Shown here piece by piece: positions 2,937 to 21,098 of a stretch of DNA of 22,789 nt. Within the stretch, counting starts at the first letter, position 1. The number at the start of each line of letters is the position of its first letter. The DNA lies in IMG/VR virus record IMGVR_UViG_3300017917_002792, positions 1-22,789 of that record; one strand, 5' to 3'. The translations under genes were made by a program, and so were the position numbers. The stretch is from a virus. Under the pieces are notes generated by a model that was given only the letters and a program-made list of their open reading frames with translations, was not told where the DNA came from and searched no databases.

Positions 2937-3380
2937 ATGGAAAAAAATGTATTTCAATATTTTCGTGGTAATGAAGAACACGGAAATAAATTAATTAAAG
3001 TTCTTGAAGAACTAGGTGGTAAAAATAGTTTTGGTCATGGTGGTAAAGATTCTGATTGTTATTATTATATAGATATTGAAGGAACTATAGTATGCCTAGA
3101 TGTTTGTGAAGGTCCTAATTTAGATTGGCTTCTTAATAATTATAAAGAAATAATTCTAACAGATTTAGAAGAATATGATTTTCAACCTTTTGATAAAATA
3201 TTAGTAAGAGATGATGAAAATACATCATGGAGTGTAGATTTATTTACTAGTTATGCGAAAAATAGACCTGAACTAGAGAATGACTATAAATTAAATTTTC
3301 CTATTATTGGATTAAGAGCAGATTGGAAAATAGCAATACCTTATAATGAAGATACCAAACATTTATTAAATACTATTTAA
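2937..3380 (+). CDS. phage protein with a PFDKxLVRD...W...IPYNExTKHLL domain
   Basis: This is a 147-residue protein. From about residue 80 it reads FQPFDKILVRDD, then W and LF, and near the C-terminus DWKIAIPYNEDTKHLLNT. From memory, this PFDKVLVRD / IPYN-TKHLLGT pattern recurs in many Bacteroidales phage and mobile-element proteins of unknown role, which supports a Bacteroidales host. The N-terminal half (residues 1-75) is acidic, with a short GGKNSFGHGGKDSD stretch. ATCAA at 2924-2928 lies before ATG2937. It is the first gene of an eight-gene operon of short overlapping ORFs. Confidence 0.75.
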   Translation: MEKNVFQYFRGNEEHGNKLIKVLEELGGKNSFGHGGKDSDCYYYIDIEGTIVCLDVCEGPNLDWLLNNYKEIILTDLEEYDFQPFDKILVRDDENTSWSVDLFTSYAKNRPELENDYKLNFPIIGLRADWKIAIPYNEDTKHLLNTI

Positions 3381-3381
3381 A

Positions 3382-3549
3382 ATGGAAACAAAAGAATTTG
3401 ACAGATTACCTACTGCAGAATCAATAAATTCTGCATTGCTCATACTAAAATCTAAGAAAGATAAAGACTTTAGATTAGTTACTATAATTGCACATCCTTG
3501 TGGTAAAGAGCTTCATTATACTGCTTACTTTGAAATGATACTACAATAA
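3382..3549 (+). CDS. hypothetical protein, 55 aa
   Basis: The ORF encodes 55 residues. ATG3382 follows the preceding stop codon by one base and its TAA overlaps the next ATG (TAATG). This tight coupling is strong evidence for a real gene. The product has an amphipathic helix (residues about 12-27) followed by two beta-like segments ending FEMILQ. One cysteine is present and there is no recognisable motif. The function is unknown. Confidence 0.65.
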   Translation: METKEFDRLPTAESINSALLILKSKKDKDFRLVTIIAHPCGKELHYTAYFEMILQ

Positions 3550-3755
3550 TGAGGACTGAAAAGCAGAAACAAAGTTTTAGTAGAAACTTTAGTATTTTAT
3601 TATTAACAGGAATATCTTCTAATTTACATTTAATTCGTGCTAAGTGTAAAGATAGAAATATAAGAATGATCTTATATAATGTTATCTCAGAAATAGAGTT
3701 ACTATTATATTATATAAAAAAAACTAATTATGAATCGTGGAAGACATTCAAGTAA
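3549..3755 (+). CDS. hypothetical protein, 68 aa
   Basis: This 68-residue protein starts in the TAATG overlap with the preceding gene and overlaps the next gene by 26 bases. It is basic at the N-terminus (residues 1-12, Lys/Arg/Gln-rich), then mostly helical with hydrophobic stretches (LLLTG and IELLLYYIKK) too short or charged to be clear membrane helices. It is unrecognised. Position in a coupled gene series is the main evidence. Confidence 0.6.
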   Translation: MRTEKQKQSFSRNFSILLLTGISSNLHLIRAKCKDRNIRMILYNVISEIELLLYYIKKTNYESWKTFK

Positions 3756-3975
3756 AGTTTCAATATTACTAAGAGGTGATTTAGGTAAATTATCAAGTTT
3801 ACCAAAAGAAATATTACTTCGTATACTAGAAATACGAAGAGAACAAACTGGTAATTATGATTTTGGAAATTTACTTACAGAGCCAGTAGCTAGTGCATAC
3901 GTGGGTGGATTTACTTGGAATATAACTAAAGAAGGGCAAGAATATTGGGCAAGAAGGTTAAATAAATTAAGATGA
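3730..3975 (+). CDS. hypothetical protein, 81 aa
   Basis: This 81-residue protein is translationally coupled at both ends: it starts inside the preceding gene, and its TGA lies in an ATGA overlap with the next. Residues 15-40 (LLRGDLGKLSSLPKEILLRILEIRRE) contain a predicted helical pair; the C-terminal part ends with GFTWNITKEGQEYWARRLNKLR, a winged-helix-like tail. DNA binding is possible but not shown. No family was recognised. Confidence 0.65.
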   Translation: MNRGRHSSKVSILLRGDLGKLSSLPKEILLRILEIRREQTGNYDFGNLLTEPVASAYVGGFTWNITKEGQEYWARRLNKLR

Positions 3976-4277
3976 GTTTAAAATTAGCAATAAGAGATTA
4001 CATTCCTTTTGAATGGGAAGTAGCATTAAAAAGAAAAAAGAAATTAAATCTTTTTATTGAATTCGTATATCTATCTTTACCAGATTATATGAAAGGTAAA
4101 AATGGATTTAAGGACGGAGTACTTAGAATAAAATATATCTTTAAACATTATCAACTTAAAGATTGTTTTTTACTAGAAAAAGTATGTATACTAAAAGACC
4201 TTGATATTTCAGAATATCGTAAAATATGGGATGAGATTAACAATGATATTGAAATAATTAAATTTAATAGCTTATAA
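3972..4277 (+). CDS. hypothetical protein, 101 aa
   Basis: This 101-residue protein begins in a 4-base ATGA overlap with the gene before it and ends three bases before the next. It is rich in Lys, Phe, Tyr and Leu and probably all-helical. The basic run KRKKK lies near residues 20-25. No motif was recognised. Base composition matches the neighbours, so there is no sign of separate transfer. Confidence 0.65.
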   Translation: MSLKLAIRDYIPFEWEVALKRKKKLNLFIEFVYLSLPDYMKGKNGFKDGVLRIKYIFKHYQLKDCFLLEKVCILKDLDISEYRKIWDEINNDIEIIKFNSL

Positions 4278-4280
4278 AAA

Positions 4281-4490
4281 ATGGAGATAATTCAGTACGT
4301 AAAATGGACAATACCTGGTGAGAAAGATAAATTTTTCAATCTAGCAGTTCAATATAAAGAAGATGCTGATTTAAAGAAAGCAATAATGGAAGAATTTCAT
4401 TTAAAATCATTTGATGCTACAACATTAATGATTCGCTTTAGAAACAAAATCAAACAAGTTAGAAATCAAAATTTAGTAAATCATGAGTAA
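4281..4490 (+). CDS. hypothetical protein, 69 aa
   Basis: The ORF encodes 69 residues with an N-terminal beta-type segment (IIQYVKWTIP) and a basic helical C-terminus. It overlaps the next gene by eight bases, so translation is probably coupled. Nothing in the sequence identifies a function. It is part of the 2937-5390 operon. Confidence 0.6.
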   Translation: MEIIQYVKWTIPGEKDKFFNLAVQYKEDADLKKAIMEEFHLKSFDATTLMIRFRNKIKQVRNQNLVNHE

Positions 4491-4971
4491 AGAATTACAA
4501 GCAGGAATGTGGATTGCACAAGGTCCTGAGATGGATATTCTTGTAGTTTTACAAGGTAAAGCTCCAATGTTAGAATTCGTAAGTGGATTAGATTTAAATT
4601 CCTTTAAAAGAGGAAAAGTAAAGATTCTATCAAAAGAATCAAGAGAAATTCAGGAAATACTTATGTATCCTGAAAAGTATATATTTGAATATCCTAGTGT
4701 TAGCCAAGCAATAGATAATATTGATGGACTAGGAAAAACTACATTTCAATCAGTTCCTGTTGACACTGAAAGGGACAAAGATGTTATGGATTACTATCTA
4801 AACAAAGCTATACCTACGAAAAGAATGAGGTATACTAATGAAAAAGAAGTAATAAGTACTGCAGTTAATATGACAGCTATATATATTAAAAATAAATATA
4901 GTTTAACATTAGGGCAAGCACTAACAATGATGGCTAAACTACAAAAAGCATTAGCTAAATCTAGGCAGTAA
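4483..4971 (+). CDS. hypothetical protein, 162 aa
   Basis: This 162-residue protein is the largest of this operon. Residues 1-65 look beta-rich (MWIAQGPEMDILVVLQG, then VKILSKES). Residues about 120-160 form a helical region ending LTLGQALTMMAKLQKALAKSR. There is no catalytic motif, signal peptide or membrane helix. It overlaps both neighbours (eight bases before, TAATG after). The function is unknown. Confidence 0.65.
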   Translation: MSKELQAGMWIAQGPEMDILVVLQGKAPMLEFVSGLDLNSFKRGKVKILSKESREIQEILMYPEKYIFEYPSVSQAIDNIDGLGKTTFQSVPVDTERDKDVMDYYLNKAIPTKRMRYTNEKEVISTAVNMTAIYIKNKYSLTLGQALTMMAKLQKALAKSRQ

Positions 4972-5390
4972 TGAAAGATTTAATCAAAGCTTTAAATAAT
5001 GAGCTAGATGATAACTATAAATTCAATCACATAACTATTCTACCTTGTTATACCAGCTATATAGACGACAGTATATTAAGTAGAGACGTCACTTGGTGTA
5101 CACCTATCATAGTGGTAAAATTAGGTACAAATGTGCAGTTAGATAAATTCGTATTATGGGTTAATAATAAACTATTCGCTCATTCGGTAGAATTATTAAA
5201 ATTAGGTAAAACTAATTACTGTACAGAATTAGTTAGACTCAACATAGCTATAACTATGATTGATAAATTTGAATTTATAACTAAAGCAGAAAGAGAAGAA
5301 CTACAAAATAAATTACGTGATACTTATTATAATCGCAAATACCAATTATTAGAGTATTTTTGTAAAGAAATTATAGAACTTCCTTTCTAA
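4971..5390 (+). CDS. hypothetical protein, 139 aa
   Basis: This 139-residue protein is coupled to the preceding gene by TAATG. Beta-type segments near residues 20-55 (HITILPCYTSYIDDS, then TPIIVVKLGT) precede helices with alternating charge. No motif was recognised. It is the last gene of the operon that begins at 2937; an inverted repeat follows seven bases after its stop. Confidence 0.65.
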   Translation: MKDLIKALNNELDDNYKFNHITILPCYTSYIDDSILSRDVTWCTPIIVVKLGTNVQLDKFVLWVNNKLFAHSVELLKLGKTNYCTELVRLNIAITMIDKFEFITKAEREELQNKLRDTYYNRKYQLLEYFCKEIIELPF

Positions 5391-5396
5391 ATTAAA

Positions 5397-5426
5397 GGGT
5401 AGGATATCTTGAACGATTACCTACCC
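5397..5426 (+). promoter_or_regulatory. inverted repeat upstream of the sigma factor
   Basis: GGGTAGG (5397-5403) is exactly complementary to CCTACCC (5420-5426) with 16 bases between. There is no T run after it, so it is not a standard terminator. Located between the operon end and ATG5445, it could be an operator or a leader hairpin for the sigma gene. It overlaps the possible but less likely TTG start at 5409. Confidence 0.4.
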
Positions 5427-5444
5427 GCTATTAAACTTAGTATT

Positions 5445-5990
5445 ATGGATAAAGAAATTATTGATTTAGTTGATAATGCTAAGCAAGGTTCAGAGCGTGC
5501 ATTTAGTAGTCTTTATAACAAGTATAAAACGAGTGTTTGGTTTACTATATATAATGTAGTTAAAAACACTGATGTTGCAGATGATTTAACGTCTGTAGTG
5601 TTTACTAAAGCTTATAAAAAGTTAGAATCATATGTAAATCATATCTCGTTTGAAATGTGGTTAAAGACTATTGCTGTTAATTCTTCTATTGATTATATTA
5701 GAAGAAATAAGAAAGAGCAATTAAATAACTATGTTGATGACGAAGAGTCTACAATCCAATTAGAAGACACTTACAAGTCTCCTGAAGAAGAAATGGTTAT
5801 GAAGGAGCAACTACGAGTTACTCTTGAAACAATCCCAACTCTTAAGAAGAAATATAGAGATTTACTCAATGCTCGTATGGAAGGTCTATCTTATAAAGAG
5901 ATAGGTGAAAAGCTTGCGATTAGTGAATTGGCTGTAAGAAGCCTTTTAAATAAAGCAAGATCTGTATTACGAAAAAAAACAAATTATTAA
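5445..5990 (+). CDS. ECF-type RNA polymerase sigma factor
   Basis: This 181-residue protein has the two domains of an ECF sigma-70 factor. Region 2 lies at about residues 8-90 (AFSSLYNKYK, then DVADDLTSVVFTKAYKKLESY, which binds core RNA polymerase and the -10 box). Region 4 lies at about residues 120-178 (LPTLKKKYRD-like start, then GLSYKEIGEKLAISELAVRSLLNKAR, a helix-turn-helix). ATG5445 was chosen over TTG5409 because it gives the usual ECF start MDKEIIDLVDNAKQG. It probably redirects host RNA polymerase to phage promoters. A small membrane protein follows 14 bases later. Confidence in the family is high; the promoters it reads are unknown. Confidence 0.9.
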   Translation: MDKEIIDLVDNAKQGSERAFSSLYNKYKTSVWFTIYNVVKNTDVADDLTSVVFTKAYKKLESYVNHISFEMWLKTIAVNSSIDYIRRNKKEQLNNYVDDEESTIQLEDTYKSPEEEMVMKEQLRVTLETIPTLKKKYRDLLNARMEGLSYKEIGEKLAISELAVRSLLNKARSVLRKKTNY

Positions 5991-6004
5991 CAAATACTTA
6001 CATT

Positions 6005-6355
6005 ATGTTACAGAGCTTAGTTTATATGCTTATAGCATTAGTAGTGGCTTTTATTATTGCAAGAATAATGAAAGACCATAGAATATTCGTTAGATTAACT
6101 CTAGCGATATTTGTAAGTTTTGTTATGGGTGCTTTTATTAAAGGTTCACTAGTGAATACCAATGATGAAGTATCTTCTCCAGTAATTGAAGCAGTTACTT
6201 ATCCCACATTACAATCATCTAATTTAATGTCGACAGAATTAGATACTACTGTTGTAATGAGTCAGGATATACAAGTACGTGACTCTGCTTCTATTTTACC
6301 AGAAGAAAAGCCTATTAACAAAACAAACAAGCCAGAGATTATAAACGATAGCTGA
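6005..6355 (+). CDS. small two-helix membrane protein
   Basis: This 116-residue protein has two hydrophobic segments, at about residues 3-21 (LVYMLIALVVAFIIARI) and 29-48 (FVRLTLAIFVSFVMGAFI), separated by a short charged loop with DH. The remaining 65 residues are polar with many Ser, Thr, Glu and Pro and probably form a flexible tail on one side of the membrane. It follows the sigma factor by 14 bases and is likely co-transcribed. That order resembles ECF/anti-sigma pairs, but anti-sigma proteins usually carry an N-terminal cytoplasmic domain that is absent here. The role is unknown. Confidence 0.7.
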   Translation: MLQSLVYMLIALVVAFIIARIMKDHRIFVRLTLAIFVSFVMGAFIKGSLVNTNDEVSSPVIEAVTYPTLQSSNLMSTELDTTVVMSQDIQVRDSASILPEEKPINKTNKPEIINDS

Positions 6356-6417
6356 TATTTCTCTTCTTTAAAGTGAATATCAATTATCAAGTATTAACCA
6401 AAATTTTTTTATTTTAA

Positions 6418-6439
6418 TAACTTTAAAAAACATTATCAA
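6418..6439 (+). promoter_or_regulatory. shared leader motif before gene 6441
   Basis: TAACTTTA at 6418-6425 and ATCAA at 6435-6439 lie directly before ATG6441. The stretch TTATTTT just upstream of the box is also found upstream of the box before 18807. It is a candidate promoter -7 element plus translation leader. Confidence 0.4.
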
Positions 6440-6440
6440 A

Positions 6441-7853
6441 ATGGCAAAGAATAAAAACAAAAAGAATAATACATTAGCAGCATCAAAAAATAGTAAAGCA
6501 GCTAAAGTAGAAACCCCAGAAACTAAAGCTCCTAAAATAGAAGCTCCAAAAGTAGAAGAATCTAAGGCTGAAAAACCTAAAATAGAAGACACTAAAGTAG
6601 AAAATACTAAAGTAGAAAAGACAAAAGCTCCAGTTCCACCAGTAAAAGAATCAAAGAAGGAAGAGCCTAAGCCAGCTTCAACTTCAAAAGTAGAAACTCC
6701 AAAACCTGCAGCTAAACCTGCTGTAAAAACAGATAGTAATATTACTACTATTGCTAGCGTTATTGGAACTGTTAAAGAAGGAGAGCGCTTATCTGCAGAT
6801 TCAACTGTTCAATTGTTAGGATTAGTTGAACGTAACTATAAAAATAATCCTGGAGTACCAGCAGAACTAGCGAATAGTATGGCTAGATCATTTGATATGA
6901 TGATGATCAATTCAGTAATGACTTGGAATCGTCAATTCGCTCAAGATATGGGTGAAAAAGGTATAAAAGTAAATAATGAAATATTTGAAGGAATGGCAAA
7001 TGCATTTGCTACTTATTTAGGTATTACATTAAAAGCTTTACCAACACCAGATGGTCAAACTATGATAGATTTTAACGAATCTATAAAAGATGCTCCAGAA
7101 GATGCGAAAAAAGTAATTGAAGCAGAAGCTACAGTTATCCAAGTAGAAGAAATCCCTGCAATTGTAAGCAGTGATGATGAAACTACTAAGATAGAGAAAC
7201 TTCGCTCTATTATGAGTATGAAGAACGGCATGGAAAATAATGTTAAAAATGCAGTAGCATTTGCTATTGAAGCTTTTGACATGAAAGATGCTGAACCAGC
7301 TCAAGTATTAGCAACAATTATAAATAAATTAGGAACTGATAAGCCTAGTCTATTACTAAACGGTTGTGCTCGTGCATTGTATGGTATGCTTATGGAAACA
7401 CAAACTCCATTTGCTCCACAAAGTTGGTTAAAGAATAAATTCCCATTCTGGAATGATACTCAGTTAGCAAATATTGCTAAAGTATTATTATCTTATAATA
7501 TGAAACTTCAATCTGAAAAGGTTGGTGCTGATTATCAACAGAAATTCCTAACTCCTTATTCAACATTGTTATCATCATGTAATGACGATCTGATCAATCG
7601 TATTATTGACGATGCAATGAAAGATAATCCTGACGGAGTTCAAATGAAGAGTGGAGATAAACCTCTAGCTATACCTGGTCTCTTAGTAGATAAGATACCT
7701 TCGCAAAAAGTAGTTAATTATATTAAGACAGCATACGGTGCTAGCTTAGCAGGTAAGTTACTTAAAAAGCAAATGCAGGATATAATGAGTTTATATACTA
7801 AACCAATAAGTCCGTTAGAAGCATATGCTGAAAAGTCAGCTTACGCAAAGTAA
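6441..7853 (+). CDS. 470-aa protein with a Lys/Pro/Glu-rich tail
   Basis: Residues 1-100 are low-complexity and disordered: Lys, Ala, Glu, Pro and Val in loose repeats of the KVE-x-PK type (for example KAPKIEAPKVEESKAEKPK). Residues about 105-470 are a folded, mostly helical domain with Met-rich stretches (SFDMMMINSVMTWNRQF) and many Asp and Asn. There is no signal peptide, membrane helix or catalytic motif. GC content and codon choice suggest high expression. It has its own leader motif and is followed eight bases later by a membrane-anchored protein. A virion, scaffold or host-interaction role would fit. No family was recognised. Confidence 0.75.
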   Translation: MAKNKNKKNNTLAASKNSKAAKVETPETKAPKIEAPKVEESKAEKPKIEDTKVENTKVEKTKAPVPPVKESKKEEPKPASTSKVETPKPAAKPAVKTDSNITTIASVIGTVKEGERLSADSTVQLLGLVERNYKNNPGVPAELANSMARSFDMMMINSVMTWNRQFAQDMGEKGIKVNNEIFEGMANAFATYLGITLKALPTPDGQTMIDFNESIKDAPEDAKKVIEAEATVIQVEEIPAIVSSDDETTKIEKLRSIMSMKNGMENNVKNAVAFAIEAFDMKDAEPAQVLATIINKLGTDKPSLLLNGCARALYGMLMETQTPFAPQSWLKNKFPFWNDTQLANIAKVLLSYNMKLQSEKVGADYQQKFLTPYSTLLSSCNDDLINRIIDDAMKDNPDGVQMKSGDKPLAIPGLLVDKIPSQKVVNYIKTAYGASLAGKLLKKQMQDIMSLYTKPISPLEAYAEKSAYAK

Positions 7854-7861
7854 TAATCAAT

Positions 7862-8191
7862 ATGAAACGATTAGAAGTAATAAGTGCAATCGCATTATTA
7901 TTATTCTGTGGTTATGTAGGATATAGCACAAACTATACTAATACAATCACAGCTAGTGAAGTACCAGTCATTAAACCAATGACAATACCTCAAACAAATA
8001 TTAGTTTAGATCTTAACAGTGGTAAATTATTTACCTCTGCTCCTAATTCCACAGTAACTGTCGCTGTAACAAAAAAAGACAGTATAGTGTATAAAACATT
8101 AGTAAAAGAGAAGAAAGTGCCTTATATAGTAAGACAACTCCCTCCAGTAGCTCCTAAACGAGTTACACTTGCGTCTATGGCGCAATACTAG
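7862..8191 (+). CDS. membrane-anchored small protein, 109 aa
   Basis: This 109-residue protein has an N-terminal hydrophobic segment (residues 5-21, VISAIALLLFCGYVGY) after MKR. It is therefore a signal anchor, or possibly a lipoprotein-like signal with Cys16, although no clean lipobox is seen. The rest is polar, with Thr, Pro and Val-rich beta-type stretches, and is predicted to be outside the cytoplasm. It starts eight bases after the preceding stop. The stop is TAG, followed two codons later by TAA. The function is unknown. Confidence 0.7.
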   Translation: MKRLEVISAIALLLFCGYVGYSTNYTNTITASEVPVIKPMTIPQTNISLDLNSGKLFTSAPNSTVTVAVTKKDSIVYKTLVKEKKVPYIVRQLPPVAPKRVTLASMAQY

Positions 8192-8624
8192 AGAAGATAA
8201 ATCTAGACCGCAACTAGAGTAGTAAAGCGGTATATAAGTGCTTTAAGCTATATCGTGCCAGCGTATCTGGTAAGTCCTACAGTTCCTATCAAAGTAATGG
8301 ACAGTGATTAACATAGGAAGTTAGTCATAAACAGCACATAATACTAGAGGCTTAAGTAATAGCTATCACTATTGCTAAGTAAACGAAGGTATAATAACTT
8401 ATCTACGCCAATTAGCTGTTGAAGGCAGAAAAAGTAGTAAGAAAAAGGGTCAGCGTGTACAGCCCTTGGTGAGAACCACTTGGTGACTAAAAGACGCAGT
8501 GATTAAATCAGCAGATTTATGAAACTAAACAGTACAAGGAGAAAGAAAATCTTCTTAATTCGCTCGATGGTACAATCATGTACTGAATCAAATGGGAGTG
8601 ATAACATTGAAGCCGCTAAGTTTC

Positions 8625-8647
8625 ACATAAAGCTCCAATCTTTATGT
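8625..8647 (+). ncRNA. perfect hairpin with loop CTCCAAT
   Basis: ACATAAAG (8625-8632) pairs with CTTTATGT (8640-8647) around the seven-base loop CTCCAAT. The next strong hairpin, 40 bases on, has nearly the same loop. Confidence 0.6.
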
Positions 8648-8687
8648 ATAGAAAAACAATAAAGAAAGAGTAGACTATCGCTCTGAT

Positions 8688-8710
8688 AAGGGCAGCTCCA
8701 AACTGCCCTT
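8688..8710 (+). ncRNA. perfect GC-richer hairpin with loop CTCCAAA
   Basis: AAGGGCAG (8688-8695) pairs with CTGCCCTT (8703-8710) around CTCCAAA. Only three T bases follow, so it is a weak terminator candidate. The loop matches that of the hairpin at 8625-8647 in six of seven bases, which suggests a functional loop rather than termination. Confidence 0.55.
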
Positions 8711-9381
8711 TATGTCTTACTTTTAGGCATATAAAGATACCACGTAGTGTTCTATACTGTCACCTATGGAAGTGAGCTCATATCGAGTTTAACCAGTATA
8801 TACGAAGGCGTATCATAATATTATTATAGTACTATATTAAATATCAAATAGTGAGAAAGTAGATTACGTGCCACAGGCTGAGTAGCTCTGATCATAAAGA
8901 CTTATTCGTTTGTATGAATAATTATTTTTATATAGATTATCCTCGATTGAGTGCCAATCTCATACGTAATGTTGTGAAAACCAGTACACAGCTAGTCAAA
9001 CGATAAATAATAGGCAATTGCAAGATTGTATTCTTTCATAGAAGAAGGAACGTGTAAACTAAGTAATAATATTATAAAAGTGGTCGATGCTATTATACCA
9101 CTATAAACTCTAATGTAGTAATTACTAGAGCATGACAATAGCTAGCGGACGAAGAGCGCAATATCTCTATTTCTAAGTAATATATTAAAGGTATAATATA
9201 TATTATCTAAATAAGTAAAGTTGGTAACTAACTTAGACAAAAGTTACAAAGACTCATAAACCCTTAAGGTTTATATATAATAGTTGATTGATATTCACTC
9301 CAGAATATTGAATAAACTTTATATTAGTACAAAGGACGAAGTATATTGGAATATAATATACGTATTCCTGTATTAGTAATG

Positions 9382-9413
9382 TTTCTGTAATAGATGTTAT
9401 TACATTAACTTTG
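9382..9413 (+). promoter_or_regulatory. candidate promoter inside the 2.1-kb non-coding region
   Basis: TAACTTTG at 9406-9413 is an exact match to the Bacteroidetes -7 pattern TAnnTTTG. TTTC at 9382-9385 lies 20 bases upstream in place of TTTG. It could start a second RNA near 9420. Confidence 0.35.
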
Positions 9414-10221
9414 TAAATCTAATAATTAAGTACACCGCAAATAAATGTCTAACTTTTAGAAAAATGAGGAAGTTCAATGAGATGTAGCAAGATACTCCTC
9501 ACCCTCGACTGTAGAAAAAAATAGCATACATAAGAACCAGTTAAAAATATATTACGCAATAATATATCTAGATTGACGCTGAGACCTCCATTAAGGTTGA
9601 TAGGTGGGAATCCTAATATTAAAATGCAGAATAAGAACAAAGTCGTAAGTACACGCAGATGTGGGTGCTTTGAAACATAAGCAGCATCCGAGCACGTTTC
9701 TCCTTACTGTTAGGCTCGATAAATAATCAGAAAGAGTAGAGTAAACTAATAAAACCGTAGTGAAATATAATAATGAAGAACAGCTGACTACACCGTCTGT
9801 GTAAGTAAAGTCCTAAGGGGAATGCTGAGTAAAGAATACTTTACGCTCTAGTAGTTTTATATAGTAAATTCGATAATAATAATATTATTTGTACGATATT
9901 ATTCAAATAATGTACTCCTCACTATAAGCAGGAAAACTTTATCATATTTTATCAGATATAACATGATATATTAAGGATGGGTATATATCTCCTACCGTTG
10001 GAGTCCCGTTGCACTGTTTTACGTGTTAACTAGTTAGTATATAATATCAGATATTTTCAAATTCAATTTTCATTGAATAATTTAATTTCATAAAATTTCA
10101 GGAGTAAAGTCTTAATCATTGAATTGATTGTTTCTCATTCAAAGCTTTTTTAAAGCGTAAGTATATATTACTTAAGAAACATATAATAAGATTTTACAGG
10201 GATGGATTATTTTCATATAAT

Positions 10222-10277
10222 TAACATTAATATTAACAACTCCGTAGGTAATATCAAATACGGAATCAAAAAAGGAG
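10222..10277 (+). promoter_or_regulatory. leader with promoter-like box, hairpin and a Shine-Dalgarno sequence
   Basis: TAACATTA (10222-10229) begins the leader. TCCGTA and TACGGA (about 10241-10264) form a 6-bp hairpin containing ATCAA in its loop, and a second ATCAA follows at 10265-10269. AAAGGAG at 10271-10277 lies seven bases before ATG10285. This is the only strong Shine-Dalgarno match seen in the window. Confidence 0.45.
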
Positions 10278-10284
10278 AAAAAAC

Positions 10285-10851
10285 ATGGAAAATTTAAAAA
10301 ATACAATAGTAAGTGAAGCAGTATTATCAAATGAAGAAGCTAACCAGTTTAGATTAAGGTTAACTAAGATTGGTTCAACTATTTATGGAAAACGAGTAGT
10401 ATGTGTAAGATCAGATAATACTGACCTTAAGTACAAAGATAATACAAAAGAGGGTATTAATCAGCTTAAACGTCCTATTAAGAAGTATTTTAGTGAATCA
10501 ATCGATGTAATATCACTTGAGCCACTAAGAAGTCCTGATGGAGAACTATGTATCGTAGTAAACCATCGTCCAGAGTTAAAATTCCCAGTAAGAGGTGAAA
10601 TGCCTAAGTTTATAAATGCAACAGAACAAGACGTTCTTAACGCTATTGGCGATTTTGAAGCACGTGGAACAGTTCAGTTCTTTACTGACATAGAGCTAGT
10701 AAATAGAGTAGTAATCTCTGAGAATGAACGTCACGCTAAGTTCCTACAGGATCTTGCTGAAGATTTTATGAATCAGGCAACTGCGTTAGACGCAATTAAT
10801 AAAATTGAGAAAAGGAATTACGACGAGTATGTAAAATCTTTTGGTGAATAA
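10285..10851 (+). CDS. hypothetical protein, 188 aa
   Basis: This 188-residue protein is unrecognised. Residues 20-100 look like a mixed alpha/beta fold with several beta strands (KRVVCVRSD, DVISLEPL, LCIVVNHRP). Residues about 115-188 are helical and charged. There are no cysteine pairs or catalytic motifs. Codon use is less AT-extreme than in the short operon genes, and it has a clear AAAGGAG ribosome site. Both features suggest a highly expressed protein. It follows the 2.1-kb structured region and precedes gene 10869 by 17 bases. Confidence 0.7.
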   Translation: MENLKNTIVSEAVLSNEEANQFRLRLTKIGSTIYGKRVVCVRSDNTDLKYKDNTKEGINQLKRPIKKYFSESIDVISLEPLRSPDGELCIVVNHRPELKFPVRGEMPKFINATEQDVLNAIGDFEARGTVQFFTDIELVNRVVISENERHAKFLQDLAEDFMNQATALDAINKIEKRNYDEYVKSFGE

Positions 10852-13005: not shown

Positions 13006-13079
13006 CATTCTATAGCTCAACTGGATAGAGCAATACACTTCTAATGTATAGGTTGATGGTTCGAATCCATCTAGAATGA
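13006..13079 (+). tRNA. tRNA-Arg(UCU)
   Basis: This is a complete 74-base cloverleaf. The acceptor CATTCTA/TAGAATG has seven perfect pairs. The D stem is GCTC/GAGC with AACTGGATA in the loop, the anticodon stem is ATACA/TGTAT with loop CTTCTAA, and the T arm is GATGG/CCATC with loop TTCGAAT. The discriminator is A and CCA is not encoded. The anticodon TCT reads AGA and AGG. AGA is the common Arg codon in these AT-rich genes, so the tRNA probably supplements the host supply. Confidence 0.95.
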
Positions 13080-13089
13080 CGAATTAAAA

Positions 13090-13186: not shown

Positions 13187-15112
13187 ATGAAGATAAGAGA
13201 AAAAACAGTATATGTATATGATATCGAAGTTTTTCCTAATGTCTTTCATTGTACAGTAAAAAATACTGAAACAGAAGAATATTATAAATTTGAAATATCT
13301 TGTAGAAAAAATCAATTAAAAGAATTAGTTGATTTATTCTGGACAATCAGAGATAACTTTGGTTATGGAGATATAATAGATTATAATACTGATAAGATTT
13401 TTGCTGGTTATAATAATATACATTACGATAATGCTATTATGAATTATATAATAGATTATCAAGATACTTTAAGTAATAAAAATTACTTACAGATATGTGA
13501 TAGTATATTTAACTTAAGTAAAGTAATAACTACATCGGATGATAGCGATATTGAGAAATGGAAGAAATGGAAGTATCAAGTAAGTTTTGAAACTCTTGAT
13601 ATTCTTACTATGTTATATTCTAGTAAATTAAGAGTCGGATTAAAGGATATGCAAGTAACTATGCAATATCCTAACGTTTTAGAGTTTGAAGGAGACTTTA
13701 ATAAGTCTCTAGAAGAATCTAAAATAGATGAAATGATAGAATATAATATAAATGATGTAGACTCTACTGAAGAGTTGTTAAATAGATGCAAGAAAGATAT
13801 AGACTTAAGAATAAGTATTGAAGATGAATATAAAGTTAAAGTATTGAATAAAGATGGAGTAAATATTGGAATGAAAATTCTAACTCAGAAATATTTAGAA
13901 AAGACAGGATTGTCTTGGAAAGATATTAAAGATTTACGGAGTCCTGCAGATACTATAGCGTTAAACGATGTTATATTACCTTTTATTGAATATAAAGATT
14001 CTTTACTAAAGAATGTACTATATGATATGAAAAGTCAAGTAGTATCTCCTGGTAGAAAAGGATATGAAAATAAATTCATATTTAGAGGATTAAAATATTC
14101 AGTAGGAGTTGGTGGTATACATTCAGAAAATAAGCCAGAAATAATTATTCCTAAAGAAGATGAAATATTAGTAGACGTTGACGTCGAATCTTTATATCCA
14201 AGTATGTTAATAGAGTATGGATTCTATCCTAAGCACTTAGGACCAGAATTCTTAGAAGTTTATCGTCAAATAAAAGAAGAAAGAATGGAAGCAAAACATA
14301 ATGGTAATAAAGTTAAGAATGAAACTTTAAAATTAGCTCTTAACGGTTTATCAGGAAATTTGCAGAATGAACATAATTTTTGTTATAGTCCAGAAGCTGT
14401 AATGAAAATTAGAATAAATGGTCAGTTACTTTTATTAATGTTAGCTGAAAGACTTACTGATATTAGTTGTAGAATTGTTCAAGCTAATACTGATGGATTA
14501 TTTGTATTACTTAAGAAAAATATTTACGAACAAGTTAAACAAGTCTGTAAAGAATGGGAACAACAAACTAAACTAGTATTGGAAGAAGATCGTTTTGAAG
14601 CAATGTATCAATTTGCTATTAATGATTATATTGCAATAGCAGAAGGATATAGTAAAAGTAAAGATGAAAAGCTTATTAAAAAGAAGGGTATGTTTATTAC
14701 TGATGTTAAGCTAGGTAAAGGATTGTCTGCAAAGATAATACCAGAAGCTATAGTAAGATATTTTGCTGATAATGTACCTGTTAAAGATACTATTTATAAC
14801 TGTAAAGATATAAAGAAATATTTAATGTCTGAAAAGACAGGTAAGCAATGGCATGTTGAGTATATGAATAAACCCCAACAAAGATGTAATAGATTCTACG
14901 CATCAATGAGTGGCGGTTATTTATATAAATGGAAAGAAGATGATGATGGTAATAAAAGATATCAGAATATGTTAGCAGATTCTGGGGTTATATTACTAAA
15001 TAAATTTGATGATAAACCAATAGAAGAAAGAAAAATTAATTATAGATATTATTTAAAGGAAACTTTAAAAATAATAGAAGAATTACAACCAAGACAACTA
15101 GCGTTGTTTTAA
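13187..15112 (+). CDS. polB: family B DNA polymerase with 3'-5' exonuclease
   Basis: This 641-residue replicative polymerase has a proofreading domain at residues 1-200: Exo I D12-I-E14, Exo II with N77 and D81, Exo III Y186-x3-D190. Palm motif A is D332-V-E-S-L-Y-P-S, motif B is K382-x3-N386-G, and motif C is N434-T-D436-G. In motif C the first Asp of the usual DTD is Asn, while the second, a metal ligand in RB69 polymerase, is kept. It is short for the family, and the A-to-B gap is only 50 residues. It heads the replication block, behind a tRNA-like leader, and is followed by a winged-helix protein and DnaB. Family confidence is high. Confidence 0.93.
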   Translation: MKIREKTVYVYDIEVFPNVFHCTVKNTETEEYYKFEISCRKNQLKELVDLFWTIRDNFGYGDIIDYNTDKIFAGYNNIHYDNAIMNYIIDYQDTLSNKNYLQICDSIFNLSKVITTSDDSDIEKWKKWKYQVSFETLDILTMLYSSKLRVGLKDMQVTMQYPNVLEFEGDFNKSLEESKIDEMIEYNINDVDSTEELLNRCKKDIDLRISIEDEYKVKVLNKDGVNIGMKILTQKYLEKTGLSWKDIKDLRSPADTIALNDVILPFIEYKDSLLKNVLYDMKSQVVSPGRKGYENKFIFRGLKYSVGVGGIHSENKPEIIIPKEDEILVDVDVESLYPSMLIEYGFYPKHLGPEFLEVYRQIKEERMEAKHNGNKVKNETLKLALNGLSGNLQNEHNFCYSPEAVMKIRINGQLLLLMLAERLTDISCRIVQANTDGLFVLLKKNIYEQVKQVCKEWEQQTKLVLEEDRFEAMYQFAINDYIAIAEGYSKSKDEKLIKKKGMFITDVKLGKGLSAKIIPEAIVRYFADNVPVKDTIYNCKDIKKYLMSEKTGKQWHVEYMNKPQQRCNRFYASMSGGYLYKWKEDDDGNKRYQNMLADSGVILLNKFDDKPIEERKINYRYYLKETLKIIEELQPRQLALF

Positions 15113-15157
15113 CAGAATATTTCAGATTGTATCAAGCTAGTAAATAAATACGATATT

Positions 15158-15727
15158 ATGATACTAGAGATAGATACGTCAATATTTAAAATAGGGAAAA
15201 TAAACATAAATCAGTTAGTATTTTTAACCTTGTGTATGAATGGAAATCAAGACAATAATCAAGACATTCACGAATTTATTAGCCGAATAAGTGAATCGGA
15301 TATACAAGGATTAATCGACCAAAATCTAATTACCACTATTAATGATGGTAATGACAAAGTATATAAAATTACAGAAAAAGTAGAAGAATACCTGAAACCA
15401 GATATGACTATGTTTGACGAATTTTATAATCTATTTCCAGTGTATGTTACTAGACCTGATGGTACGAAAGGATTTTTACGAGCAAACATTGCAAAATGTC
15501 GTAAAGAATATAACCGTATTATTGGTAAATCTAGAGCAATGCACGAACATATTATGAAATGTCTAAAATATGAGATTGACACTAAAATGTTAGTCGGTAA
15601 ATTAGGATATATGAAAACTATGTGGAAATGGCTCACTCAGCATGAGTGGGAGGCTTTGGAAGAAGAAATGCAAAATTCAGTAGTAAGTCCCCTTAATGAA
15701 GAATATTATGGAGAACGAATCTACTAA
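15158..15727 (+). CDS. winged-helix replication protein, candidate helicase loader
   Basis: This 189-residue protein has a winged-helix-like N-terminus (residues about 15-75, with VFLTLCMNGN, then DIQGLIDQNLITTI). Its C-terminal half (about 85-175) reads MFDEFYNLFPVYVTRPDGT, later ANIAKCRKEYNRII, and ends in GYMKTMWKWLTQHEWE. That layout resembles phage replisome organiser or helicase-loader proteins, which recruit DnaB to the origin. It overlaps the DnaB gene by 32 bases, so the two are probably translationally coupled. The loader role is inferred from pattern and position; an origin-binding role is also possible. Confidence 0.7.
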   Translation: MILEIDTSIFKIGKININQLVFLTLCMNGNQDNNQDIHEFISRISESDIQGLIDQNLITTINDGNDKVYKITEKVEEYLKPDMTMFDEFYNLFPVYVTRPDGTKGFLRANIAKCRKEYNRIIGKSRAMHEHIMKCLKYEIDTKMLVGKLGYMKTMWKWLTQHEWEALEEEMQNSVVSPLNEEYYGERIY

Positions 15728-16676
15728 TATATTACCATTTAGAACTATATCTGAAGTAGCAGATGAATCGGTTAAATATATAGATGATAGGCGTAAGCAT
15801 CTCATCACACCTTTAAAAACAAGGTGGCAAAAGTTTAATAGAGTCTGTTGTGGAGGTATAGAACCTAATATGATATTTACTATTGCTGGAGGTTCTGGCA
15901 GTGGTAAAAGTGCATTTGTAAATACGTTAGAAACTGATTTAATTGATTTAAATAAGGCTCAAGATATAGTAGTCTTATGCTTTAGTCTAGAAATGGTAAG
16001 TTCGAGAAATATCGGTCGTAAATTTAGTAATAAGTTACGTAGAACTACCTCAGAGCTATATAGTGCTGAAGCTGATTTAACTAATGATGAATTTCAGAAA
16101 GTTAAATCTACAGCAGAACAAATAAAGAAGTATTCTATATATTATGTAGATACTCCTAGCTCAGTTAAAGCTATAGAAAATACTATTGATTATTTTCACG
16201 AGAATGTAGCTAAAGGAAAGTGGCTTATAATAATATTAGATCATGTACTTTTAGTTGAAGGTGATAGTGAAAGAGGCACAATTGTAGATTTACAGAAAAT
16301 GTTTATACGTAAGAAGAAATTATTCAATACAAGTATAATACAGATTTCACAGATGAATCGTAATATTGAGCAACCTGATAGAATCAATAATCCCTCAAAT
16401 CATTTCCCAATGAGAAGTGATTTATCTGCTTCAGATGCTATATTTCAAGCAAGTGACTATGTTATGGCATTGTCGAGACCTGAATTGCTTAATTTGCAAT
16501 TTTATGGTATCAATCGTCTACCTGTTAAAAATAAAGTTTATCTGCATTTCTTAAAAGTAAGAGATGCTGGAGAACCCTGTATATTAGAATTCGATAATGA
16601 ATTAAAATATGGTAACTTAATTGAAACAGTAAAACTATCTGAACCAGTACAAAAGAAAGTATTAATAAAAAATTAA
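15696..16676 (+). CDS. dnaB: DnaB-type replicative helicase
   Basis: This 326-residue RecA-fold helicase should unwind DNA ahead of the polymerase. Walker A is GGSGSGKS at residues 65-72, Walker B is the hydrophobic run ending in LDH (LIIILDHVLL) near 185, and the DnaB-like sensor segment ISQMNRN lies near 222. It is shorter than cellular DnaB because the N-terminal primase-interacting domain is missing, as in many phage versions. Two ATGs are possible, at 15696 and 15708. The longer form overlaps the upstream gene by 32 bases. The DnaG-type primase lies farther downstream in the same block. Confidence 0.88.
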   Translation: MKNIMENESTNILPFRTISEVADESVKYIDDRRKHLITPLKTRWQKFNRVCCGGIEPNMIFTIAGGSGSGKSAFVNTLETDLIDLNKAQDIVVLCFSLEMVSSRNIGRKFSNKLRRTTSELYSAEADLTNDEFQKVKSTAEQIKKYSIYYVDTPSSVKAIENTIDYFHENVAKGKWLIIILDHVLLVEGDSERGTIVDLQKMFIRKKKLFNTSIIQISQMNRNIEQPDRINNPSNHFPMRSDLSASDAIFQASDYVMALSRPELLNLQFYGINRLPVKNKVYLHFLKVRDAGEPCILEFDNELKYGNLIETVKLSEPVQKKVLIKN

Positions 16677-20726: not shown

Positions 20727-21017
20727 ATAAGAATACGTTAAGCGATAAACAGCTCTTATAAAATATCATTATTTGAAATTAAGTAAAATAATATATAAGA
20801 CTATAAGGAAGAACAAATAAATATTTGTATGTAACTAAGATAGGTGTGAGTCCTATGATACGAAATATCTATAAAAAATATCGAACGAATATAGTTTACA
20901 TTTGTAAAATTTTATTGCTATTAGATTATTAAAATATTAAGCATGAGACATTAATATTTTTTATAAAACTGCAAACAGTTTATTTTTAAAGAATAATTTA
21001 TAAAAAAAAGAATTTTA
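20727..21017 (+). ncRNA. structured intergenic region before the primase
   Basis: No ORF is present. ATAAGA (20727-20732) pairs with TCTTAT (20754-20759). ACAAATA and TATTTGT (20813-20828) form a perfect stem with almost no loop. ATAGG (20840-20844) pairs with CCTAT (20852-20856) around TGTGAGT. TAAGTAA occurs at 20780-20786. Two terminator-like hairpins close the stretch. It is either a small RNA or a long 3' untranslated region. Confidence 0.4.
20933..20987 (+). terminator. two tandem terminator-like hairpins
   Basis: AATATTAA (20933-20940) pairs with TTAATATT (20951-20958), followed by a short T run. Then AAACTG (20966-20971) pairs with CAGTTT (20976-20981), followed by A and five T bases. 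Both stems are AT-rich but perfect, and together they probably end the MoxR/vWA transcript. Confidence 0.5.
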
Positions 21018-21077
21018 AGAGAGTTCCATTGAAAAAAAGGAAGTTGGTTCAAGCAGGTTCGAATCCTGCACTCTCTA
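21018..21077 (+). ncRNA. 60-base tRNA-like element before the primase
   Basis: Acceptor strands AGAGAGT (21018-21024) and ACTCTCT (21070-21076) pair perfectly, and A21077 would be the discriminator. The T arm GCAGG-TTCGAAT-CCTGC is canonical. Between them only TTCC/GGAA can form a short arm with an A-rich 11-base loop containing TTGAAAA (the loop of tRNA-Phe), and AGTTGGTT resembles a D loop without its stem. At 60 bases it lacks a full D or anticodon arm. It ends 21 bases before ATG21099. Confidence 0.55.
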
Positions 21078-21098
21078 CATATTTAAAATCTACCACAT

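Follow-up and report, generated by a model that had tools for sequence, protein, structure and literature searches.

A conserved structured RNA locus in Suoliviridae phages, possibly a single molecule of about 2 kb and unrelated to GOLLD and ROOL

Among the described RNAs closest to the locus reported here, OLE is a bacterial RNA (Bacillota) of about 600 nt with a membrane partner, OapA, ROOL is often found near tRNA islands, and the pRNA of phage phi29, shorter than 200 nt, is part of the packaging motor. GOLLD, ROOL and OLE have been found to form RNA-only assemblies; GOLLD is often longer than 800 nt, one solved ROOL measures 659 nt, and the phage GOLLD and ROOL RNAs have no known function (PMC12286853). 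A survey of structured RNAs in the human microbiome reported candidates of 27-219 nt (PMC8040213). For crAss-like phages, the open-access literature yielded no description of the locus, and the words "non-coding" and "noncoding" are absent from the main crAss-like genome survey and from a review (PMC7886860, PMC10136315).

The window, meaning the whole stretch of DNA that was analysed, is a 22.8-kb IMG/VR fragment carrying genes for a sigma factor, DNA polymerase B, a DnaB-like helicase, Sak4 and primase; judged by its gene order and best matches, it is a crAss-like phage of the family Suoliviridae. Between an ORF that ends at 8191 and one that begins at 10285 lies a gap that an earlier note, made from the letters alone, had described as non-coding, dense in stops, raised in GC and full of hairpins. 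Its coordinates were right and the gap holds no credible gene: the longest stop-free frame on the plus strand has 51 codons against a shuffled mean of 68, and the longest frame is 76 codons with TAG read as Q (shuffled mean 86) and 51 with TGA read as W (shuffled mean 84). GC content is indeed higher than in the window (0.315 vs 0.294), but only modestly, with 0.37 at 8001-8750. The proposed locus and the genes beside it are as follows.

8192 to 10284, plus strand: proposed large structured non-coding RNA locus, filling the whole inter-ORF gap; ORF-free, with a syntenic gap in relatives, covariation and G-U/A-C asymmetry
6441 to 7853, plus strand: 470-aa protein, two genes upstream of the RNA, conserved
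7862 to 8191, plus strand: 109-aa protein whose N-terminal segment is hydrophobic (a membrane anchor or a signal), adjoining the RNA or one gene away in almost all relatives
10285 to 10851, plus strand: 188-aa protein, alpha/beta with a long C-terminal helix, directly downstream of the RNA

No tRNA, tmRNA, rRNA or any Rfam family was found in the gap with Rfam and ARAGORN, permissive thresholds included. GOLLD, ROOL and OLE gave no cmscan match in the window at gathering score or in the gap at E up to 5, in agreement with the earlier note, which had been unable to match the first two. In the relatives' loci GOLLD and ROOL were likewise unmatched by the Rfam models, as was OLE where it was searched. 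Because Rfam returns no match, the locus is not GOLLD, ROOL or OLE; the comparative evidence given below supports instead a third large phage RNA, unrelated to GOLLD and ROOL, that belongs to no Rfam family. The rRNA-like words GTCCTAAGG and GTGCCAGC were judged to be at chance level for 8-9 bases, no rRNA model having matched. A tmRNA identity was also rejected, as the phage tmRNA lies elsewhere (2521-2876) and none is present in the gap.

The gap RNA resembles GOLLD as a large ornate phage non-coding RNA that is conserved in a domain nearer the 3' end, more variable in the remainder and carried by tRNA-bearing genomes (PMC12286853), but GOLLD often exceeds 800 nt whereas this locus is about 2 kb, and the gap RNA occurs in crAss-like phages at one fixed site ahead of the replication genes. 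Like ROOL, it is a large pseudoknotted phage RNA of unknown function. However, it lies near single tRNAs (those of the window, at 13006-13080 and 20988-21078, are isolated) with no tRNA island at the locus, so that the location typical of ROOL, which is frequent rather than strict, is not met. OLE is also large and ornate, and the usual neighbour of the gap RNA, a small protein with a hydrophobic N-terminus, loosely recalls OLE and OapA; no relation to OapA has been shown and there are no binding data. OLE differs in being bacterial and only about 600 nt long, and the gap RNA has no Rfam match. The phi29 pRNA offers the parallel of a phage RNA with an architectural role, but nothing at the gap locus points to packaging.

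We found an ORF-poor gap of about 1.7-2.5 kb at the equivalent place in 20 phage records, spanning Bearivirinae, Uncouvirinae, Loutivirinae, Boorivirinae and Oafivirinae, and in 21 IMG/VR loci that had been fetched via the sigma factor alone (some loci come from the same genome; the analysis drew on 36 gap sequences). Gene order in all the relatives examined runs from the sigma factor through a small protein, a protein of about 470 aa (about 300-340 aa in the environmental group) and one of about 125 aa with a hydrophobic N-terminus to the gap, sometimes with one extra gene just before it; genes of about 185 aa and about 175 aa follow, and further on, where the locus extends so far, DNA polymerase. 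A blastn search with the gap matched cr6_1 in five pieces spanning its length, all on the plus strand, and a single block in three more named genomes, the matches always falling in unannotated sequence. Gaps compared between subfamilies share short blocks that are mostly collinear and nearly all on the same strand. A few deposited records annotate small ORFs inside the gap, mostly antisense, which look spurious; elsewhere it is unannotated. The RNA is present at the usual position in all the Suoliviridae genomes that were checked; one divergent phage, of a termite symbiont, is unresolved. Scans of IMG/VR with DNA patterns for the core domain described below revealed no contigs beyond those already known, and the 188-aa protein, used as the sole query against IMG/VR, gave no matches.

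Four other phages were considered as carriers of the RNA outside Suoliviridae and rejected. crAss001 has no such gap and no core-model match above chance. crAss002 has a 2.1-kb ORF-poor gap, but only one third of it is conserved in the sole relative and the model finds no match. The Flavobacterium phage Fpv3 has a 2.3-kb gap at the equivalent place, but with an ordinary tmRNA inside and no model match, and Azobacteroides phage ProJPt-Bp1 has neither a gap at the equivalent place nor a model match. Some of these genomes hold other empty stretches. The gap of the cultured Fpv3 (L073:17499-19827) is ORF-free and lies ahead of the polymerase; its tmRNA is unannotated in the record and the remainder is unexplained. 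ProJPt-Bp1 has a 2.1-kb CDS-free stretch elsewhere (L079:2948-5051), between divergent gene blocks and with a tRNA-Gln inside, whose relation to the RNA is unknown, and in crAss001 a 0.9-kb empty stretch (L020:43266-44170) adjoins a TROVE (Ro60-like) gene and may be a site for a Y-RNA-like partner.

Neither Pfam nor PHROG families nor solved folds were matched by the flanking proteins. In the 470-aa protein a disordered, lysine-rich N-terminus of 115 residues precedes a mostly helical C-terminal body; the confident model of the 188-aa protein (pLDDT 87.8) found structure matches in Suoliviridae proteins only and none among solved structures. These proteins share the RNA's distribution and are candidate partners but no more; gene adjacency is weak evidence of partnership since phage gene order is conserved anyway. 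Farther upstream the window carries a Hatchet ribozyme (34-156), a RAGATH-9 RNA (1286-1448) and the tmRNA mentioned above, which is permuted; the equivalent block of relatives holds RAGATH-7-associated, RAGATH-22 and hammerhead RNAs as well as group I introns. There is no explanation for the large number of self-cleaving RNAs that these phages retain.

Support for the RNA is comparative, not energetic. The earlier note had suggested comparing the folding energy of the gap with dinucleotide shuffles; the gap is slightly more stable (-455.3 vs -424.9 ± 13.9, z -2.2), a result in the expected direction that comes close to failing. We rejected single-sequence free energy as proof of an RNA, a z of -2.2 being unremarkable, and energy alone would have led to dismissal. 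Folded singly in 300-nt windows, the gap has a mean z of -0.87, against -1.9 for coding windows of the same phage. Those coding regions (3000-7800 and 13300-16500) are themselves more stable than dinucleotide shuffles (mean z about -1.9), exceeding the structured RNA.

For the comparative analysis, RNAalifold consensus folds of per-subgroup alignments were set against alignments whose columns had been shuffled within gap and variability classes. In the window group (10 sequences, mean identity 0.57) the consensus energy was -211.8 vs -67.9 ± 8.0 for shuffled alignments, with 152 covarying pairs vs 26.5 ± 5.5, of which 70 vs 6.9 ± 3.7 were without a mispair. The seven Loutivirinae sequences gave -528.8 vs -348.5 ± 12.5, with 153 covarying pairs vs 54.2 ± 6.8 and 95 vs 17.2 ± 5.4 free of mispairs. 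Unbroken covarying pairs also exceeded the shuffled values in Boorivirinae (116 vs 52.3 ± 4.7), Oafivirinae (60 vs 31.3 ± 3.6) and the environmental group (36 vs 8.7 ± 2.0). The absence of covariation in relatives, which the earlier note had named as grounds for refutation, is thus contradicted in every subgroup, and the hairpins it had pointed to are real as conserved structure. In 240-column windows the excess over shuffles is found nearly everywhere; the exception, 9730-9947, coincides with the site of a block-order swap between the window and cr6. The helices and blocks outside the core are these.

8398-8404:8435-8441 (8398 to 8441), plus strand: helix, 7/7 pairs covary
8742-8745:8808-8811 with 8753-8758:8795-8800 (8742 to 8811), plus strand: domain enclosing sequence able to form two small hairpins
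8815-8827:9063-9075 (8815 to 9075), plus strand: domain-closing helix with a span of about 260 nt, 10/13 pairs covary
9079 to 9142, plus strand: pseudoknotted module with helix A (9079-9083:9098-9102), helix B (9108-9112:9126-9130) and pseudoknot (9089-9094:9137-9142)
9773 to 9855, plus strand: conserved block A, containing GTCCTAAGGGG, the only block found by blastn in distant genera
9976 to 10033, plus strand: conserved block B, a 58-nt match to cr6 at 89.7% identity
10237 to 10284, plus strand: 3'-terminal element, a hairpin CTCCGTAGGT..ATCAA..ACGGA plus ATCAA, common to four subgroups

The strongest helices are 8398-8404:8435-8441, 8816-8822:9068-9074, which covaries at 7/7 pairs within the longer domain-closing helix, and 8753-8758:8795-8800. 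The last falls where the earlier note had seen a three-way-junction-like domain (8753-8800); it covaries at 6/6 pairs without a mispair, and two further hairpins are possible between its arms. In the window group the loop of the hairpin at 9079-9102 pairs with 9137-9142: in 9/9 sequences the hairpin keeps 5/5 pairs and the pseudoknot 6/6, across five different pseudoknot sequences. This count is not blind, since the pseudoknot was spotted by eye in the alignment and checked afterwards. The terminal element (ATCAANNACGNNATCAA) directly precedes the ribosome-binding site of the next gene. Its exact matches, where found, occur once per genome and adjoin the RNA locus; a pattern scan gave one-mismatch matches elsewhere in some genomes, and in one genome that scan gave none.

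A domain that recurs more widely lies toward the 3' side.

9467 to 9635, plus strand: universal core domain, with matches of model R1 in Loutivirinae, other Uncouvirinae and Boorivirinae
9467-9469:9503-9505 and 9472-9473:9501-9502, plus strand: core P1
9509-9514:9624-9629, plus strand: core P2, the closing helix, with compensatory change at 6/6 pairs
9547-9554:9560-9567, plus strand: core hairpin with loop CGCAA and compensatory change at 8/8 pairs
9601-9604:9612-9615, plus strand: GGUGGGAAUCC hairpin in the core

We trained a 169-nt covariance model of this core on five window-group sequences and searched 590 kb with it. Seven untrained Loutivirinae (E 9.6e-18 to 3.4e-10) and three further Uncouvirinae-type loci, plus near-duplicates, proved to have this domain within the gap and on the correct strand. 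Matches in Boorivirinae were only marginal (E 0.001-0.07); that in Oafivirinae was in the right place and not significant (E 0.097), and neither were cr118 and the environmental group. Across 18 aligned core matches, both partners change in 29/35 pairs, and the paired cells make up 90.6%, compared with 36-48% when the partner is slid; the covariation score of 0.490 (shuffled 0.159 ± 0.015) was reached by 0/500 shuffles. This alignment is fitted to the model and so favours the structure, but the compensatory changes of the hairpin and P2 are visible directly in the letters. The GNRA-type loops reported earlier are likewise present, the core hairpin loop carrying GCAA and other GGUGGAAAUCC hairpin members GGAA or GAAA. 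Compensatory changes exceeding both shuffled and slid controls meet the criterion for a conserved structured non-coding RNA, and we are highly confident, from comparison of sequences, that the locus encodes one. We show by the same means a plus-strand RNA structure that compensatory changes have preserved throughout Suoliviridae; it comprises local domains, a pseudoknot and hairpins capped by GNRA loops.

That the RNA is one molecule of about 2 kb is likely but open, there being no transcription data and the exact ends being undetermined. The gap could instead be an island of several independent structured RNAs or domains, lying head to tail and separately processed or transcribed, with no single 2-kb RNA; we regard this as possible though unlikely. 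The supported helices span at most about 260 nt, and in the alignments used none with a span above 300 nt did better than the shuffles, so a single global fold is not shown. Blocks A and B are in swapped order in cr6_1 (L002) relative to the window, which suggests, at the sequence level, module permutation inside the RNA and would also suit separate units. Many small RNAs lie nearby (Hatchet, RAGATH and hammerhead ribozymes, tmRNA, tRNAs), and sigma-70-like promoter matches number 24 against a shuffled mean of 13.8, in an AT-rich stretch. Against such an island, total length and place are conserved together, there is no long unstructured spacer, and the one terminator-like hairpin compares with 0.8 expected by chance.

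A giant cis-acting leader, in which the 2 kb would be the 5' UTR of the replication operon and would govern expression of the 188-aa gene and DNA polymerase, seems improbable to us. RNA and operon share a strand and structure reaches the ribosome-binding site, the terminal element standing directly before it in four subgroups; this element could itself be a small separate leader, however, and most of the conserved structure lies 600-2000 nt from the start codon. At 2 kb, this one would be far longer than any leader known to us.

Size, pseudoknot and GNRA-capped hairpins would also suit a large ribozyme or the relic of a self-splicing intron or retroelement, and these phages are rich in group I introns and in ribozymes that cleave themselves. 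However, none of the models for group I introns, group II introns and ribozyme families matched the gap in the window or in six other loci, permissive thresholds included, and the gap never interrupts a gene: the locus sits between intact genes and does not qualify as an intron. We consider this origin very unlikely.

Since the gap lies just ahead of the replication genes, its hairpins might act as DNA, in a replication origin or packaging site. Hairpins in DNA would tolerate G-T and A-C mismatches alike. On the plus strand, G-U cells outnumber A-C cells by 58 to 32 and 61 to 30 among the pairs common to plus- and minus-strand folds (119 vs 62 in total, a strand-neutral comparison) and by 50 to 8 in the core, whose structure was drawn on the plus strand and is biased toward it; these counts come from related sequences and carry no formal probability. 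Because G-U outnumbers A-C, we infer a plus-strand RNA rather than a DNA element. Such covariation over 2 kb also goes beyond the origins known to us, none of which has 2 kb of anything so elaborate, and a DNA element is hardly tenable. Decayed or recoded protein genes can be set aside with near certainty: TAG or TGA is recoded in some Suoliviridae (PMC7886860), but no frame opens under either recoding and the compensatory changes track base pairs, not codons.

The giant structured phage RNA put forward in the earlier note is therefore supported by synteny, covariation, wobble asymmetry and the covariance-model test, while transcription and a single 2-kb molecule are unproved. We lean, by a small degree, toward a new family of ornate phage RNAs of very large size, produced together with the replication operon and probably serving as a scaffold or RNP, the function being inferred. 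One transcript of about 2 kb, or a product processed from one, would be made with an early/middle operon in which the sigma factor comes first, then the RNA locus, then the replication genes; transcription here is itself an inference. The RNA would fold into a compact multi-domain particle and have an architectural role, as a scaffold, RNP or RNA-only assembly; during takeover and replication it may hold or sequester a factor of the host or of the phage. The first candidate partners would be the basic 470-aa, small membrane-anchored and 188-aa proteins, which lie beside the RNA in nearly every genome. Such a mode would be like that of GOLLD, ROOL or OLE without the RNA belonging to any of them, and is inferred from size, ornateness and neighbours.

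At about 2 kb, the gap RNA would be roughly twice as large as any phage RNA known so far, and its role is unexplained in a major group of human gut viruses. One gut virome survey found the Suoliviridae, or delta crAss-like phages, to be the largest crAss-like group by number of genomes (PMC7886860). The locus takes up about 2% of the genome, and its near-universal retention implies that its role is important. If the RNA is truly a single molecule, it would be, to our knowledge, the largest structured RNA of any DNA phage and would have been conserved ever since the family arose; whether a single Suoliviridae RNA of about 2 kb, rRNA-like in size and complexity, serves as a dedicated RNA or RNP machine for infection is a proposition on which we are evenly divided. 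GOLLD and ROOL already invite one to ask why phages produce ornate RNAs of such size, and with the gap RNA it becomes a testable question what giant phage RNAs do.
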